Below are positions 7,686 through 63,465 of a stretch of DNA of 64,000 bases, in pieces. Each line of letters begins with the position of its first letter. The first letter of the stretch is position 1. The stretch is from Aquimarina sp. Aq107 (GTDB lineage Bacteria > Bacteroidota > Bacteroidia > Flavobacteriales > Flavobacteriaceae). Made by a program: the position numbers and the translations under genes. Location: positions 1,824,501 to 1,888,500 of the forward strand of contig NZ_OX030782.1 in assembly GCF_943733665.1 (NCBI RefSeq). The letters run 5' to 3'. The notes beneath the pieces were generated by a model that saw nothing but the letters and a program-made list of their open reading frames with translations, had not been told where the DNA came from and made no database searches.

Positions 7686-7690
7686 CACGC

Positions 7691-7998
7691 AAGCAGATCA
7701 CCTTATCGCTGTTTTGATTTATCAAAAGAGAGGAAAGTCCGGACACCATAGTGCAGTATAGCGGGTAACGCCCGTCCGTCGTGAGATGAGGACAAGTGCA
7801 GCAGAAAGTATGTACAGGTAAGGCTGTAGTGAAACCAGGTAAACTCTATACGGTGCAACGCCATGTATACCAACGCTTAAGGGTTGCGCGCCCAATGTTG
7901 GAGGGTAGGCGGTTTGATCTTGATAGTAATATCAAGGCTAGATAAATGATAAGGATTCCATCTTTGATGGATTACAGAATCCGGCTTATGATCTGCTT
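7691..7998 (+). ncRNA. rnpB: RNase P RNA (class A)
   Basis: Catalytic RNA that removes tRNA 5' leaders. The signature GAGGAAAGTCCGGAC is at about 7730-7744, the second conserved region shows AGGGTAGGCGG near 7900, and the 3' end carries ACAGAATCCGGCTTA. The ends pair: GCAGATCA at 7693-7700 with TGATCTGC at 7989-7996 forms helix P1, followed by a run of seven T. Length is about 308 bases. It lies between the divergently read dnaX and a secreted-protein gene. Ends are judged from P1 pairing and could be off by a few bases. Confidence 0.95.
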
Positions 7999-8056
7999 TT
8001 TTTATTTCTTTAGTTAGGCATACAATTTGATAAGATTGAATAAACAAGATAAAGAT

Positions 8057-59119: not shown

Positions 59120-59467
59120 ATGAAAAAATCAAGGCTCAAAGAATATGTAGTACCCTATAAAACTTTAAAAACTCAATTTGTTTCACCTTATAACAAAAAA
59201 GAAGTTTTACTAGAAGTACGTATGCATAAAAAGATGATACACAAGGGTTTTGGTGAAAAAACACTAAAACAGCCAATCATTACGTTTCATACTACCACAG
59301 ATCAGACGGAGATCCCTAAAAGGTATTGGACAGAACAAATGATAAAAGCAGTGGATGCCTACGCTAAAGAATATCCTGTAATTGATATCAGAAAAACACA
59401 TTCTATAGCTAGTAAGATGATTTCTTCTATTTCTAGAGTATGGTTGGTATTGATTCCTATTCATTGA
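59120..59467 (+). CDS. Truncated paralogue of the next gene
   Basis: 115 residues. Aligns from residue 1 to about 105 with the 59633 protein (YKTLKTQFVSPY / YQTLKSQFISPY; EVRMHKKMI / EVRLHKKVI; TFHTTTDQTEI / AFYTTTDRTEI; YAKEYPVIDIRKT / YAKQYPIVDAGKT), then ends at IPIH where the longer protein has its membrane segment and outer domain. So it is the cytoplasmic half of a duplicated gene, either decaying or kept as a short form. Confidence 0.6.
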   Translation: MKKSRLKEYVVPYKTLKTQFVSPYNKKEVLLEVRMHKKMIHKGFGEKTLKQPIITFHTTTDQTEIPKRYWTEQMIKAVDAYAKEYPVIDIRKTHSIASKMISSISRVWLVLIPIH

Positions 59468-59562
59468 TTTTTTATTCTGTTAATGAGATTACATAAAATC
59501 AACAATTAATATTATATTTCTCATGCATTACATAAAACAAAGAAATCTTCCCTAATTAAACG

Positions 59563-59583
59563 GTGGTTTTCAGGGTTGATTTT
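59563..59583 (+). repeat. Shared upstream element, copy 2
   Basis: GTGGTTTTCAGGG and flanks, two mismatches from copy 1, ending 49 bases before the ATG of the 59633 gene. The near-equal spacing supports that ATG. Confidence 0.55.
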
Positions 59584-59632
59584 GATCTGAATCCGTGGTT
59601 ATTTTGAGATGTACAAACTAACAACGCACATT

Positions 59633-60373
59633 ATGCCTATTCTTACTATCAGTGAGCATTTAGAACATTATCAAACACTCAAGAGCCAATTTATATCCCC
59701 ATATACTAATATGGAAGTGATGATGGAAGTTCGCTTGCATAAAAAGGTTATAAATACAGGCTTGGTTCAAAACATCCAGAAGAAACCCGTAATTGCTTTT
59801 TATACAACTACAGATCGAACCGAAATTTCTAAAAAAAAGTGGACGCAGCAAATGAAAAAAGCAGCTGCGGATTATGCTAAACAATATCCAATTGTCGATG
59901 CAGGAAAAACATATTCGACATTTGGTAAAATTATATTCTCTACTGCTATTATTGGAGTCATTGGTGCGTTAGCACTGGTTTTTTACTTATTTATGTTTAG
60001 TAATCCACAAGCAAAAATGAATATAGAAGAGTTTGTGTCTTTACCTAATAAAGGAGATAAATACTATGGATTTATTAATCAGACTTTAGATGAAAAGAAG
60101 ACGCCTTTTTTAGCTCATGGTTGGATTAAAGTAATAGCTGTAAATCCTATAGATAGCACTTGTACGTATGTTACGGGTGAAGAAGTAGGAGCGCTTACCT
60201 TTGAAACCTTAGAAGCAGATCATAGTAATTTTTCTAATACACAGATAAAAGGAAAATTTAAAGCAGATAAGCGAGCTCAAAAAATCTCACTTATATCAGC
60301 AGACAAGCGTTGGAGATTCGAATCCCAAGTGATCAGTAATAAAACAAAGAATTATAAAATCACAGCAGAGTAA
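59633..60373 (+). CDS. Single-pass membrane protein of unknown function
   Basis: 246 residues from the ATG at 59633, the start that aligns with its truncated neighbour; an upstream ATG adds eight residues without a match. Residues 1-100 are cytoplasmic, 105-125 a membrane segment (FSTAIIGVIGALALVFYLFM), and 130-246 a soluble domain (MNIEEFVSLPNKGDKYYGFI, HGWIKVIAVNPIDSTCTYVT). No family recognised. It leads a same-strand run with the DUF1266 gene, 7 bases downstream. Confidence 0.65.
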   Translation: MPILTISEHLEHYQTLKSQFISPYTNMEVMMEVRLHKKVINTGLVQNIQKKPVIAFYTTTDRTEISKKKWTQQMKKAAADYAKQYPIVDAGKTYSTFGKIIFSTAIIGVIGALALVFYLFMFSNPQAKMNIEEFVSLPNKGDKYYGFINQTLDEKKTPFLAHGWIKVIAVNPIDSTCTYVTGEEVGALTFETLEADHSNFSNTQIKGKFKADKRAQKISLISADKRWRFESQVISNKTKNYKITAE

Positions 60374-60380
60374 GCAGCTT

Positions 60381-61493
60381 ATGGAAATATTACAAAACAC
60401 ACCATTAAGTCGCATAAATCCACCAAAAAACAATACTTTTTTACAAGCATATCAAAACTTAGAGCAGAACGCCAAAGTTGGGTTATCGATCTTAGGAACC
60501 GCAACGTTGTTTTTTATGTTGGTAATAGGAATGGGATTGTACGAAGTTTTTGGTAATCCTTCACAAGGAAATGGGATGCCTTTAAACTCTTTGATAGAAC
60601 CTCAGTTTCTTGCTATAGTCACTGGTGTAATGATTTCCTTATTTTTTATATTTTCTTTTCTTAATAAACAACGAATATTAGCAATAAAAGAACAACAAAC
60701 ATATTATAGGTTGGGAGATGTAACTCCTTTGAACATAGATCAAAAAAAAGCAATTAGACTCAATTTAGTGCATATGTTTTATGGTGGTGGTTGGTCAGAA
60801 ACTTTAGAAGTTTTTCCGTGTAATATTCGTTTAGGAGAACAGAAGTTTAAACCACAAACATTTGATATACATCAAGATGTGTTGTATCAACAATACCTTA
60901 ATGAAGATTGGGGAGTACTTAATAAAGAACAATACTATGAGATGATAGCTCGTTTATTTGATGGAATGCATTCTAAATGGTTTGCGCAGGATATTGTTTC
61001 GGACTCCGCAAATGATATGATTAATCAAATCTCTGGACTTACTAAAGTGGATCCAATGTATATAGAGAAATGTGGTTTAATCGCTAATAATAAGCCCAAG
61101 AAGTTGATTTGGGGATTTGATTTATTTAGAGTTATACCAATGAGTCGATGGGCATTTATGGCCGGTTATATCTCAGAAAGCGAAGCTTGGAAAAATATAC
61201 TAAAAGCTTCTGAACTCATTTATTATTTGTTTGATAGTCATGAGGATTATTATGATAATTATCGGGTAGGACATGCTTTTTGGAGTAATAATTTTGAAGC
61301 CTGTACGGATCGATTACAGAAATGGACCTATTTTAAAGAAAAATGTGATTGGCCCGCAAATAATTTGGCGTGGACACAACCAGAATCTGTAACGCTACCA
61401 GAAAATATGAAGACGAATTTCGAAACACATCTTTCGGAGATAAACAACCAACAGAAAACTACTATCGGGTTTCGCAAAACCCAAGAAGGGTGA
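60381..61493 (+). CDS. Membrane protein with DUF1266 domain
   Basis: 370 residues. Two membrane segments (about 35-55 and 75-95: LGTATLFFMLVIGMGLYEVF, FLAIVTGVMISLFFIFSFL). Residues 170-330 match DUF1266: YYEMIARLFDGMHSKWFAQD, LIWGFDLFRVIPMSRWAFMA, GYISESEAWKNILKASELIY, HEDYYDNYRVGHAFWSNN. DUF1266 proteins (E. coli YbeU/YbeR relatives) have no firm function; some occur near toxin systems. It follows the cargo operon by 1.6 kb; a link to it is possible, not shown. Confidence 0.75.
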   Translation: MEILQNTPLSRINPPKNNTFLQAYQNLEQNAKVGLSILGTATLFFMLVIGMGLYEVFGNPSQGNGMPLNSLIEPQFLAIVTGVMISLFFIFSFLNKQRILAIKEQQTYYRLGDVTPLNIDQKKAIRLNLVHMFYGGGWSETLEVFPCNIRLGEQKFKPQTFDIHQDVLYQQYLNEDWGVLNKEQYYEMIARLFDGMHSKWFAQDIVSDSANDMINQISGLTKVDPMYIEKCGLIANNKPKKLIWGFDLFRVIPMSRWAFMAGYISESEAWKNILKASELIYYLFDSHEDYYDNYRVGHAFWSNNFEACTDRLQKWTYFKEKCDWPANNLAWTQPESVTLPENMKTNFETHLSEINNQQKTTIGFRKTQEG

Positions 61494-61494
61494 T

Positions 61495-61518
61495 ACTTCA
61501 TACTGAGTACGTTGAAGT
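61495..61518. repeat. Degenerate hairpin repeat after the DUF1266 gene
   Basis: Stem ACTTCA / TGAAGT around a core with CTGAGTACGT, like the repeats near 62.8-63.4 kb (stem, TGAG, a short core, TCGA-like, stem). Begins one base after the DUF1266 stop. Confidence 0.45.
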
Positions 61519-61602
61519 TCTTAAAAGGCTGCAGATTTGAAAGGTCTATGTACAATTAGGAAAAGGTATGAAATCAATTGAATATCAAACCATAAATCAA
61601 TC

Positions 61603-62754
61603 ATGTCAAATACAAAGAAGAAAGCATATCATGCATTAGTAATTAGCACGTGTATCGTTGTACTATTGGTCAGTTTTATTTTTTTGAAATCTAAATATGA
61701 TGAAAAGAAGGCTACTGCAATTGCCAAGTTAGAAGCTAAAAAGGATGTGATTCAGGATTTAGACTATCAGTATGCAAAACTAAAATATGCTGCTAGGGAT
61801 TGGAGTACTTTATACGCTAAAATAACAGCAGTACATAACAGAGATACTGTGCTACATCAAAACTATACAATAGCGGAGTTAACCAGAAAACATCATGATA
61901 TAATCGGTTTCTGGGATGAATATGAAGATGATGTGTATATAAAATATTATGCTACTAATACCCAATACATAGCTAGCATATATCAGGTTAGTGATACTTT
62001 AAAACAGTTGTTTACGACATACCACCTTCATGAAAAAATCTCTCGATATAAACAATCTTTAAATATCGCTTACAGTGATATCATACATAATATGAAGCCT
62101 ACGGATAGTATATCTAGATACCTATCTCATAAATATCCTCAATACACTACATACTTTTATTATTTAGATAAGATTGATCAGGCGTATTATGAATTATTGT
62201 TTGAGCGGTATCCAAATTCATTACATTATTTAATAGAAGGCAATAATGAATTAGAAAAAGAAGCCGTAAGCAGGTTAATTAATATCCAAACACAGGAGCT
62301 AAGTAACCCTTGGTTACATACTAATAAGGTGGTAGAGGAAAAGCTAAGTAATCAAATGAATGCACATTTTAGTGTAGCAAAAGATACTACAAGCATTTAT
62401 AAAATTAAGAAGAATGATCAAAAGTTATTGCTGATGGTAAAAACAGCAATGATTTCCCAAAACGATTCTGAGGCTGCAAAAAAAGCATACTTAGATGCAC
62501 TAACGGTAGCGGCAGAAAGTATAAAAGATACATTTGTAAAAGACATTTATGTATATGTAGAGGTAGTAGATCCAGAAACACTTTTTACCGATGTATGGAT
62601 AAAAACACCAATACAGACAGATCTGGCTGTGGATTACCCTAGCGCGTTATCAAGTATCCTTTCTGGTTTTTATAATGTAGATGCATATAAATATTATATC
62701 AAAGGATCCTTTAATATATTAGAAGCTTGGTATCCTAAAGTAGATAAACCTTAA
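61603..62754 (+). CDS. Single-pass membrane protein of unknown function
   Basis: 383 residues. One membrane segment near the start (ALVISTCIVVLLVSFIFL), then a long helical outer domain rich in Tyr and Lys (LDYQYAKLKYAARDWSTLYA, ISRYLSHKYPQYTTYFYYL), and a beta-containing end (DTFVKDIYVYVEVVDPETLF, SALSSILSGFYNVDAYKYY). No family recognised. Same strand as the DUF1266 gene, bounded by hairpin repeats on both sides. Confidence 0.65.
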   Translation: MSNTKKKAYHALVISTCIVVLLVSFIFLKSKYDEKKATAIAKLEAKKDVIQDLDYQYAKLKYAARDWSTLYAKITAVHNRDTVLHQNYTIAELTRKHHDIIGFWDEYEDDVYIKYYATNTQYIASIYQVSDTLKQLFTTYHLHEKISRYKQSLNIAYSDIIHNMKPTDSISRYLSHKYPQYTTYFYYLDKIDQAYYELLFERYPNSLHYLIEGNNELEKEAVSRLINIQTQELSNPWLHTNKVVEEKLSNQMNAHFSVAKDTTSIYKIKKNDQKLLLMVKTAMISQNDSEAAKKAYLDALTVAAESIKDTFVKDIYVYVEVVDPETLFTDVWIKTPIQTDLAVDYPSALSSILSGFYNVDAYKYYIKGSFNILEAWYPKVDKP

Positions 62755-62788
62755 ATATCCTCCATTACATCCGAACCTTGAACATTCC

Positions 62789-62978
62789 CGAACCCTGAGC
62801 GGAGCTGAAGAGTAATTCCCTATAAATCGGGCTTCGAGAGCCTCAGCCCTCGAATACAATCGAACCCTGAGGTAACTCGAAGGGTGAGACTTCGAGAGCC
62901 TCAGTCTCCAGTGTTATATTATTCCACAGGGTGAGGCACTCGAACTCTGAGCAGTCACACTGAGCTTGTCGAAATGTG
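62789..62978. repeat. Cluster of five short hairpin repeats
   Basis: Five units in 190 bases: 62789-62812 (CGAACCCTGAGCGG...), 62829-62849 (GGGCT/AGCCC stem), 62861-62884 (CGAACCCTGAGG...CGAAGGG), 62886-62908 (GAGACT/AGTCTC stem) and 62956-62978 (CACA/TGTG stem around CTGAGCTTGTCGAAA). Units two and four share the loop TCGAGAGCCTC but have different stems, each still paired, so the pairing is what is kept. These resemble REP-type repeats, and similar strings (CTGAGCTTGTCGAA) are familiar from other Bacteroidota. Confidence 0.75.
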
Positions 62979-63045
62979 TATTCATAGGGTAACAATTACT
63001 TCCTTTTTAACACATAATACTATAGATACGGTAACATCATAAAGG

Positions 63046-63402
63046 ATGGCAGGATATATGTACATATTAGAATGTAGTGACGGTAGTTACTATACAGGAA
63101 GTACAAAAGATTTAGATAGGAGATTGCAGCAGCACCAAAATGGAGAAGGAGCTAATCATACAAAAAAACGATTACCTGTTAGGTTATTATACTACGAACA
63201 ATATGATAGGATCGATACGGCATTCTATCGAGAGAAACAAGTACAAGGATGGAGCAGAGCGAAAAAGGAAGCATTAATGAATGGAGATTTGGATACGCTA
63301 CATGATTTAGCTGAATGCACGAACGGAACTCATTTTTCTGTTTTCAAAGTACCAGACTTCGACTCCGCTCAGTCCTCGGATAAGAATACCACTGAACCCT
63401 GA
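63046..63402 (+). CDS. GIY-YIG nuclease family protein with a repeat-encoded tail
   Basis: 118 residues. The GIY-YIG-type core is YMYILECSDGSYYTGSTKDL (residues 4-23, YIL...YTG), with the arginine in DRRLQQHQNG and the metal-site glutamate in FYREKQVQGWSRAKK. The domain normally ends near residue 95 (DLDTLHDLAECTNG). The final 15-18 residues (VPDFDSAQSSDKNTTEP) are encoded by the hairpin repeats at 63355-63418, which supply the stop codon. ATG at 63046 has AAAGG before it; the ATG at 63058 is an alternative. Repeats lie on both sides of the gene. Small single-domain members have no settled function. Confidence 0.88.
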   Translation: MAGYMYILECSDGSYYTGSTKDLDRRLQQHQNGEGANHTKKRLPVRLLYYEQYDRIDTAFYREKQVQGWSRAKKEALMNGDLDTLHDLAECTNGTHFSVFKVPDFDSAQSSDKNTTEP

Positions 63403-63418
63403 GTGCAGCCGAAGGGTT
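63355..63418. repeat. Two hairpin repeats at the end of the GIY-YIG gene
   Basis: 63355-63374: stem GACT/AGTC around TCGACTCCGCTC, the reverse orientation of the 62789 type. 63395-63418: perfect stem AACCCT/AGGGTT around GAGTGCAGCCGA. The first is wholly inside the coding frame and the second spans its stop codon. Confidence 0.75.
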
Positions 63419-63424
63419 AGTACA

Positions 63425-63465
63425 ACACCCCCAATAGTTGGACGCAACTATTGGGGGTGTTTTTT
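63425..63465 (+). terminator. Strong terminator after the GIY-YIG gene
   Basis: Perfect 16-base stem (63425-63440 with 63445-63460, core CCCCCAATAGTTG), loop GACG, then a T run. Confidence 0.9.

Follow-up and report, generated by a model that had tools for sequence, protein, structure and literature searches.

A small GIY-YIG nuclease gene among hairpins

Near the end of a 64-kb stretch of the Aquimarina sp. Aq107 genome (positions 1824501-1888500 of NZ_OX030782.1, hereafter the window; assembly GCF_943733665.1, a single contig of 5.5 Mb), an open reading frame (ORF) encoding a small GIY-YIG nuclease of 118 amino acids (63046..63402, + strand; Pfam PF01541, E 6e-18) lies within a nest of short hairpins built to one plan. 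Nucleases of this clade and hairpins of this kind co-occur in several phyla, and the relationship between the two is the subject of this report. The gene is the sole small stand-alone GIY-YIG detected in the Aq107 genome, and the window's only one; the remaining three GIY-YIG matches in the genome lie inside open frames of 480-600 amino acids.

The conserved domain of the window nuclease spans residues 1 to about 91, and four residues (Y6, Y16, R26 and E63) are invariant across 131 nuclease sequences, as befits members of the GIY-YIG domain family; we take this Tyr, Tyr, Arg and Glu to be the catalytic residues of GIY-YIG enzymes. The C-terminal tail is partly encoded by the repeats themselves: the ORF shares its 3′ end with two units, and the string DFDSAQ is a repeat unit translated in frame, with a similar tail present in 25 of 77 relatives. 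The nearest named relatives, among the best 80 of 385, are from Aquimarina; in a related species (L149), read by eye, the same domain carries a different C-terminus, with a unit at its stop codon. The closest relative among the matches listed (L039, 6001-6354; 87% identical) is likewise surrounded by units but has decayed, its YIG motif being broken by an in-frame stop.

The nest (62791-63418) comprises five perfect and three imperfect hairpins, a perfect unit being defined as a stem of at least 4 bp enclosing GAG...CGA, with an inner part of 9-44 nt allowed in the window search; the perfect stems measure 4-6 bp. Upstream of the gene, a decayed unit recognized by eye, AACCCT-GAGCGGAGCTGA-AGAGT (62791..62813, +), with an imperfect stem and CTGA replacing TCGA, is followed by three perfect hairpins of class C: GGGCT.GAGGCTCTCGA.AGCCC (62829..62849, -) and GAGACT.GAGGCTCTCGA.AGTCTC (62886..62908, -), both found by pattern search, and between them ACCCT.GAGGTAACTCGA.AGGGT (62864..62885, +), which, taken with two flanking bases per side, folds better than 200 of 200 shuffled sequences. 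Two imperfect units read by eye, CAGGGT.GAGGCACTCGA.ACTCTG (62927..62949, +) and, in class D, CACACT.GAGCTTGTCGA.AATGTG (62956..62978, +), complete the upstream group; neither folds better than its shuffles, and the same holds for the perfect class A hairpin GACT.GAGCGGAGTCGA.AGTC (63355..63374, -) within the 3′ end of the ORF. The last perfect unit, AACCCT.GAGTGCAGCCGA.AGGGTT (class B; 63395..63418, +), found by pattern search and among the units folded, spans the stop codon. Directly after the nest lies a perfect inverted repeat of 17 bp that leads into a run of T (63424-63461); by eye it is an intrinsic terminator, unrelated to the units.

The original prediction, which described seven or eight hairpins of one plan around a GIY-YIG gene, is thereby borne out, and all the stems that it named are present in the window. 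It placed the start of the nest at 61495, which we reject: no GAG...CGA hairpin occurs there even at a stem of at least 3 bp, and the nest, though real, begins near 62791 and continues beyond the end of the window (64986-65003 in window numbering, stem of 3 bp). The whole 64 kb contains seven units with a stem of at least 4 bp and an inner part of 9-44 nt; in five of them the inner part is short (at most 13 nt), and these are the perfect units of the nest. Genome-wide (5.5 Mb), 11 copies of the strict core TGAGCN2-3GTCGAA were counted, against one of its reversed control, and three of the 11 lie within about 2 kb of the gene. The looser core TGAGN2-9TCGA is found nine times in the 20 kb around the gene, seven of them at 62834-63359; it was rejected as a genome-wide marker of units, as its 403 occurrences show no excess over the 724 of the reversed pattern.

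When seven window units were folded as single-stranded DNA and compared with 200 shuffles each, two were clearly better (0/200 and 8/200 shuffles as good), one was weakly better (19/200), and four were no better. Because four of the seven window folds are unremarkable, it is covariation between loci, and not folding energy, that provides the evidence for the units.

Association with the nuclease clade and covariation of stems

Two sets of nuclease loci were compared: 79 loci chosen by protein similarity alone (from the best 80 of 385 relatives), and an enlarged set of 131, comprising these 79 and 52 further loci (58 minus L121, L135, L142, L325, L327 and L339, which are cut by contig ends). 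Across the 79 loci, the strict core TGAGCN2-3GTCGA reaches a density of 3.37/kb within 250 bp of the gene, falling to 0.53/kb at 250-500 bp and to 0.02-0.09/kb farther away, while its reversed control occurs a single time across the whole set; counting three core classes, 77 of the 79 have a unit within 600 bp. In the enlarged set, 125 of 131 loci have a unit of the GAG/CGA plan (stem of at least 4 bp) within 500 bp of the gene, 82 of them on both sides, the exceptions being L081, L097 (which contains Ns), L115, L128, L333 and L336. Unit density declines from 8.2/kb within 100 bp to 5.5/kb at 100-250 bp, 1.4/kb at 250-500 bp and 0.1-0.4/kb beyond. Before this general plan was recognized, the strict classes alone had yielded units in 17/29 and 16/29 close loci, in two counts. 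The reversed loose core was discarded as a near-gene control because it, too, becomes more frequent close to genes; its place was taken by tests based on the strict core, on shuffled stems and on all hairpins.

The all-hairpin test presupposes no motif: every hairpin with a stem of at least 5 bp and an inner part of 9-44 nt near the 131 loci was collected, and the trinucleotides just inside the stem were tabulated. The pair GAG/CGA appears 362 times, in 108 of 131 loci, a 14.6-fold enrichment over the far flanks. The runner-up by number of loci is found in 24, without enrichment, and among the 15 commonest pairs the only other enriched one is CCC/ACC (8-fold, 15 loci). The units share a plan consisting of a variable outer stem, an invariant GAG...CGA inside it, and a variable inner part; GAG is preceded by T or C in 505 of the 510 units that pair. 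Units cluster beside GIY-YIG genes of this clade in Flavobacteriaceae, a test named by the original prediction, and also in further phyla. At several loci (L287, from genome G185; L152, L294 and L296), a second palindrome-like string, e.g. CCTCCATAGGCGGACA, is also present, and in one Aquimarina species it splits the core of a unit, a different repeat nested within the first.

As controls, 20 distant GIY-YIG paralogues from genomes of the same family were hand-picked from the weak matches listed, and a unit was found beside four of them (three with the strict classes). One of these four, L174 (1597-2510; 44% identical), is flanked on either side by a genuine nest of TGTCATGCT-GAGCGCAAGCGA-type units (ten matches, some of which overlap), and the clade therefore has no sharp border. 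The units of this nest resemble the repeats of two high-copy genomes, G215 and G283, considered below.

Covariation was assessed in every GAGCNNNGYCGA near a gene, with no requirement for pairing (274 units from 88 loci). Watson-Crick pairs are formed at outer positions 1-4 in 263, 254, 235 and 245 of the 274 units, as against 223, 153, 92 and 110 expected from base composition. At the first outer pair, T-A is used by 82 loci and C-G by 8. Each of the four possible pair types is represented at pairs 3 and 4, in between 6 and 57 loci apiece, and pairing has faded once pairs 7-8 are reached. In a separate count, four contiguous pairs were present in 208 of 335 units, versus a mean of 19 after shuffling. 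The claim that structure is kept over sequence accordingly holds in a wide set of loci.

These results bear on the simplest alternative, that the hairpins are chance structures or ordinary terminators in AT-rich intergenic DNA. Small hairpins are indeed common, and the fold energies of four of the seven window units are unremarkable, yet the enrichment, the covariation, and the reversed and shuffled controls refute this explanation, to which we assign next to no probability.

The invariant bases may themselves be structured. Read as Y-GAG...YCGA-R, the motif would place a T-A or C-G pair next to G.A and A.G, followed by G-C, on top of the stem, so that two sheared G.A pairs would stand in tandem; the remaining CGNAG of the commonest class can potentially close a GNA triloop. 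DNA motifs with tandem sheared G.A pairs and GNA triloops are stable. The folding model pairs some of the GAG/CGA bases otherwise, with modest energies.

Repeat class, copy number and turnover

Taken together, we consider it reasonably probable that the gene and its hairpins constitute an interspersed repeat system of the repetitive extragenic palindrome (REP) type, in which a GIY-YIG nuclease takes the place of the REP-associated tyrosine transposase (RAYT) of the HUH class as dedicated enzyme. The original prediction had suggested that a GIY-YIG enzyme might play such a RAYT-like part; the association that it presumed is well supported, and mobilization by the nuclease would be the further step. 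The principal alternative holds that the REPs are spread by something else, and that the GIY-YIG gene is a homing-type parasite repeatedly inserted in REP clusters, with the hairpins as its cutting site. GIY-YIG domains are known from homing endonucleases, and the window nuclease has a weak, sub-cut-off match to group I intron endonucleases.

One point on which these two explanations differ is the match between enzyme and repeat. On a tree of 130 nucleases (7 of 137 loci gave no full protein by motif), which has few columns and many open forks, repeat class changes 26 times, versus 56.5 times with shuffled labels, and none of 200 shuffles was as low. This signal is carried by the CGNAG class, by class C and by a group of loci first scored as repeat-free, and repeat class largely follows the nuclease tree. 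By eye, the loci first scored as repeat-free possess units that keep to the plan in a longer form, among them GGTCAC-TGAGTAGCGCGAAGCGCGTATCGAA-GTGACC in L331, nearly identical in L328, and TGTCAGTT-CGAGTG...TATCGAG-AAC, the plan of L138, L142, L144 and L146; in L135, L143 and L147, CGTC replaces TGTC at the long-form units.

Copy number, scored by pattern searches of whole genomes, also tracks the nuclease. Among 149 Flavobacteriaceae genomes, one per genus, the median number of strict-pattern copies is 16 where a close relative is present (E ≤1e-17; 50 genomes), 5.5 where the best match is middling (14), 3 where it is weak (38) and 1 where there is none (47). The corresponding Spearman coefficient, uncorrected for phylogeny, is 0.63 (p 9e-18), as opposed to 0.13 (p 0.12) for the reversed pattern. 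Across 296 genomes of the phylum, searched with pattern TGAGCGNAGYCGAA, at least 10 copies are present in 20 of 56 genomes with a close relative (two of them, at E 1.1e-17 and 1.8e-17, counted as close) and in 23 of the 240 that lack one, with medians of 3 and 0; the odds ratio is 5.2 (p 6e-6), in a test likewise uncorrected for phylogeny. In 14 genomes reached via loci outside the Bacteroidota, all of them chosen as carriers of the gene, there are 1-105 copies each, and 0-2 of the control. Copy number is therefore higher in genomes with the gene, as anticipated, but many single genomes break the rule: seven of the 50 family genomes with a close relative have fewer than five copies. Of the outcomes that the original prediction named as damaging to it (units spread evenly without a link to GIY-YIG genes, equal copy number in genomes lacking the gene, stems that do not covary), none was encountered in general, these single genomes apart.

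Both the family copy numbers and the nuclease tree argue against a homing-type parasite, as does the presence of the gene among units even where units are otherwise rare, the Aq107 genome being an example; moreover, no other mobilizer was seen near units in motif scans of the fetched sequence.

In the fetched sequence, neighbouring units within 120 bp of each other, gene-flanking ones included, are inverted in 215 cases and direct in 124, a pairing of the kind seen in REPINs (paired, inverted REPs) and bacterial interspersed mosaic elements (BIMEs). Copies far from the gene are often arranged as inverted pairs separated by about 12-55 bp, e.g. TGTC-stem-TGAGCTTGTCGA-stem′...inverted...GACA. 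One gap between two conserved Aquimarina genes (C1:5233972) was cut out in 19 species (22 of 30 fetched loci used) and compared by eye. A pair of one class is found in five species, and the same class with the opposite stem order and other flanks in a sixth; four have other classes (one decayed), one has a broken copy, six have none, and two are unclear. The presence of different units, or none, among species amounts to turnover at a single site. The flanks have diverged among species, which makes the unit ends unreadable, and the gap was rejected as a clean empty site. A second candidate, a REPIN at C1:204680, was also rejected: it is common to genomes G166 and G162, with a decayed copy in G189, and its site is occupied by an unrelated gene in the nearest relative and several others and by a 7-bp gap in two. 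A free-standing homing endonuclease would be present or absent at a cognate allelic site; here, the gene with its units lies near one particular neighbour gene in some species of Aquimarina and is missing there in other species, with flanks too diverged to define an exact site.

Several observations weigh against a dedicated nuclease and have to be set beside this evidence. The populated and empty sites called for by the original prediction were searched for, and no base-exact empty site was obtained among the relatives compared at C1:204680 and C1:5233972. Class D, with 7 changes over 8 loci, and class E, with 5 changes over 5 loci, do not cluster on the nuclease tree. A close relative of the nuclease is missing in 13 of the 48 family genomes with at least 10 copies, and in the phylum sample high copy numbers without a close nuclease are seen in G215 (195 copies), G283 (148), G382 (92), G341 (69), G378 (55) and 18 more genomes with at least 10; G215 has no nuclease match, and the other four named have weak matches only. 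In 29% of the G215 genome (1.12 Mb), 77 units were counted and no GIY-YIG was found. In genome G125, six REPIN copies (L181-L183, L185-L187) lie inside a miniature inverted-repeat transposable element (MITE) with ends like those of an insertion sequence (IS; GAGGCTGTCTRAAAA), which presumably carried them. Finally, the G.A pairing described above is read from the sequence alone.

The high-copy genomes without a close nuclease may indicate that REPs outlive their enzyme, or that another factor acts there. Such genomes, and the six copies within an IS-like element, also speak for a homing-type parasite, an explanation that we regard as unlikely but not negligible. At some G215 loci (L348-L363, L391-L430), REPIN-type cores are flanked in places by another palindrome, GTCATTGCGAGGAACGAAGCAATC.

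Elsewhere in and just past the window, a DUF1266 gene (PF06889) is preceded by two small ORFs at 59120-59467 and 59609-60373 that appear similar over their first 95 residues (the whole spanning 59120-61493), and the RNase P RNA gene (RF00010) lies at 7690-8003. Just beyond the window's end (L038, 7165-9508), two adjacent, near-alike genes, an apparent duplication, have a common C-terminal domain that by eye resembles adenylate/guanylate cyclases.

Relation to known repeat families and a proposed mechanism

Like REP/RAYT systems, the present one has a small single-gene nuclease amid palindromes, a conserved mismatch in the stem, inverted pairs and a repeat type matched to the enzyme; in some genomes its units are concentrated around the gene, and certain classes bear a tag. 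The differences lie in the enzyme, which is a GIY-YIG and not an HUH tyrosine enzyme, in the mismatch, which here is GAG/CGA, and in the tag, which here is [CT]GTC/CCTC or absent, as opposed to GTAG. None of the window's five perfect units is preceded by GTAG, and the loci scanned for HUH ORFs near units yielded three weak, unconvincing motif matches. With neither an HUH enzyme nor GTAG, the system is not a member of the REP/RAYT family, and a RAYT was rejected as partner on the basis of these motif scans, the gene itself being a PF01541 GIY-YIG. A broader version of this idea, that RAYT/HUH transposases or IS elements move the repeats and that the GIY-YIG link is a by-product of intergenic clustering, could draw on the REPIN-like architecture and on the MITE of G125. 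It must contend with the scarcity of HUH-like motifs (beyond those just mentioned, the 1.12 Mb read from G215 holds three unconvincing matches, none closer than 933 bp to a unit) and with the GAG/CGA type being by far the commonest of all hairpins beside the gene. A published survey of CGTC-tagged REPs, in the portion considered here, likewise found no flanking transposase (Di Nocera et al. 2013; PMC3733652). We judge this version very improbable.

The CGTC superfamily, which includes dRS3 of Neisseria and RPE-4/RPE-6 of Rickettsia, is described in that portion of the survey as apparently lacking a dedicated transposase, a question left to future work, and no nuclease partner is named there (PMC3733652). 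To compare it with the present system, 23 of 56 plasmid records matching the nuclease (40 of them listed; 35-50% identity) were picked for taxon spread, leaving out one Legionella, three Xanthomonas and others. Palindromes tagged with CGTC or CCTC, such as cgtc-ATCCTCGGG-cttga-CCCGAGGAT-cca, adjoin the gene in eight of the 23 loci, all from Rhizobiaceae or Sphingomonadaceae, and stand on both sides of it in all five of the eight that were inspected. The Rhizobiaceae units match the published description, with a CGTC (or TGTC/CCTC) tag, a 9-bp stem starting from AT, a 5-nt loop and a CCA tail; such CGTC-like units lie beside the GIY-YIG gene on S. meliloti pSymB and in Rhizobium, Shinella and Neorhizobium. 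Repeats that fit a superfamily reported, in the text considered, without a dedicated transposase here flank a GIY-YIG gene. Five more plasmid loci (two from Methylobacterium, one each from Sphingomonas, Planktothrix and Spirosoma) have GAG/CGA units. Repeats stand beside the gene in 11 of 13 alphaproteobacterial loci, tagged ones in 8 of the 13, and in these 13 CGTC is the commonest 4-mer before near hairpins (15 occurrences in 6 loci, and one far from the gene).

The two kinds of repeat differ in structure. Unlike CGTC REPs, the Bacteroidota and cyanobacterial units have a GAG/CGA internal loop and are mostly untagged, and no GAG/CGA unit was found within 500 bp of the gene in the eight loci with tagged palindromes. 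The window units, with 4-6 bp stems and a GAG/CGA loop, depart from the 8-9 bp stem from AT, loop of 4-5 nt and CCA tail of CGTC REPs; having neither tag nor long stem, they give no support for membership in the CGTC superfamily. A tag does recur on the GAG/CGA side: TGTCA is found at -8 in 20 of 45 distinct class A units of Flavobacteriaceae, and TGTC or CGTC precedes the stem in some Flavobacteriaceae units and in one Planktothrix and one Spirosoma locus. As a general mark of units it was rejected: of 510 GAG/CGA units near the gene, 94 have [CT]GTC or CCTC at their foot and 64 a reversed tag, and the five perfect units of the window all lack it; this lowers a little the odds both of a dedicated GIY-YIG mobilizer and of the superfamily outlined below. 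What joins the GAG/CGA units and the CGTC palindromes is the nuclease clade.

The plasmid loci also bear on a housekeeping function, in which the nuclease would trim or resolve REP cruciforms and the flanking hairpins would regulate its own mRNA or gene. Units at both ends of the gene, one even spanning the stop codon, would suit such a role, and the nearest solved structures by sequence, the small GIY-YIG proteins of UPF0213 (PDB 1zg2 and 1ywl), have the same domain and are labelled hypothetical. Eight plasmid relatives from Firmicutes, beta- and gammaproteobacteria, presumably members of UPF0213/YhbQ, differ from the present clade: a tagged hairpin was found in none of the eight loci, and a GAG/CGA match in one, a doubtful, AT-rich string inside the next gene. 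Neither dispersed pairs nor copy variation would be explained by autoregulation alone, and housekeeping strikes us as a distinctly improbable account.

A likeness by description, not by sequence, exists with the small dispersed repeats of cyanobacteria, which Elhai et al. in 2008 reportedly characterized as very short, mobile and without a known transposase. Among the CC-licensed PMC papers listed, none links this nuclease to these repeats (subscription papers and preprints lay outside the search).

For a dedicated GIY-YIG mobilizer, we infer recognition, nicking and copying by the nuclease in the following manner. GIY-YIG enzymes have one active site and are not known to form a covalent intermediate. 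The hairpin would fold on single-stranded DNA, for instance the lagging-strand template; the tandem sheared G.A/A.G pairs of GAG/CGA in its stem would serve as a recognition mark; the nuclease would nick the foot of the hairpin; and host repair would copy the unit, or a pair, into the broken partner site. The gene-flanking units would represent the parental array. In E. coli REPs, to which the recognition mark may be likened, a bulge is needed for activity, according to the portion of the source considered (PMC8266576).

We accordingly propose this GIY-YIG clade as the missing partner of the CGTC REPs, with a RAYT/REP-like way of working and other chemistry. The fuller proposition, that the clade is the dedicated non-HUH, non-covalent mobilizer of a second great REP superfamily, comprising both GAG/CGA and CGTC hairpins, with co-evolution of enzyme and hairpin, across Bacteroidota, Cyanobacteria, Alphaproteobacteria, Desulfobacterota and Acidobacteriota, seems to us evenly poised between right and wrong. 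REPs are widespread small bacterial repeats, and of the two superfamilies only the GTAG one has a known enzyme; a small, named candidate with a defined substrate makes the question of the CGTC partner directly testable. If the proposal is correct, two unrelated nuclease folds would share one lifestyle, that of a single-gene nuclease with mismatch-bearing hairpins, and a function would be provided for many proteins annotated merely as ‘GIY-YIG nuclease family protein’.

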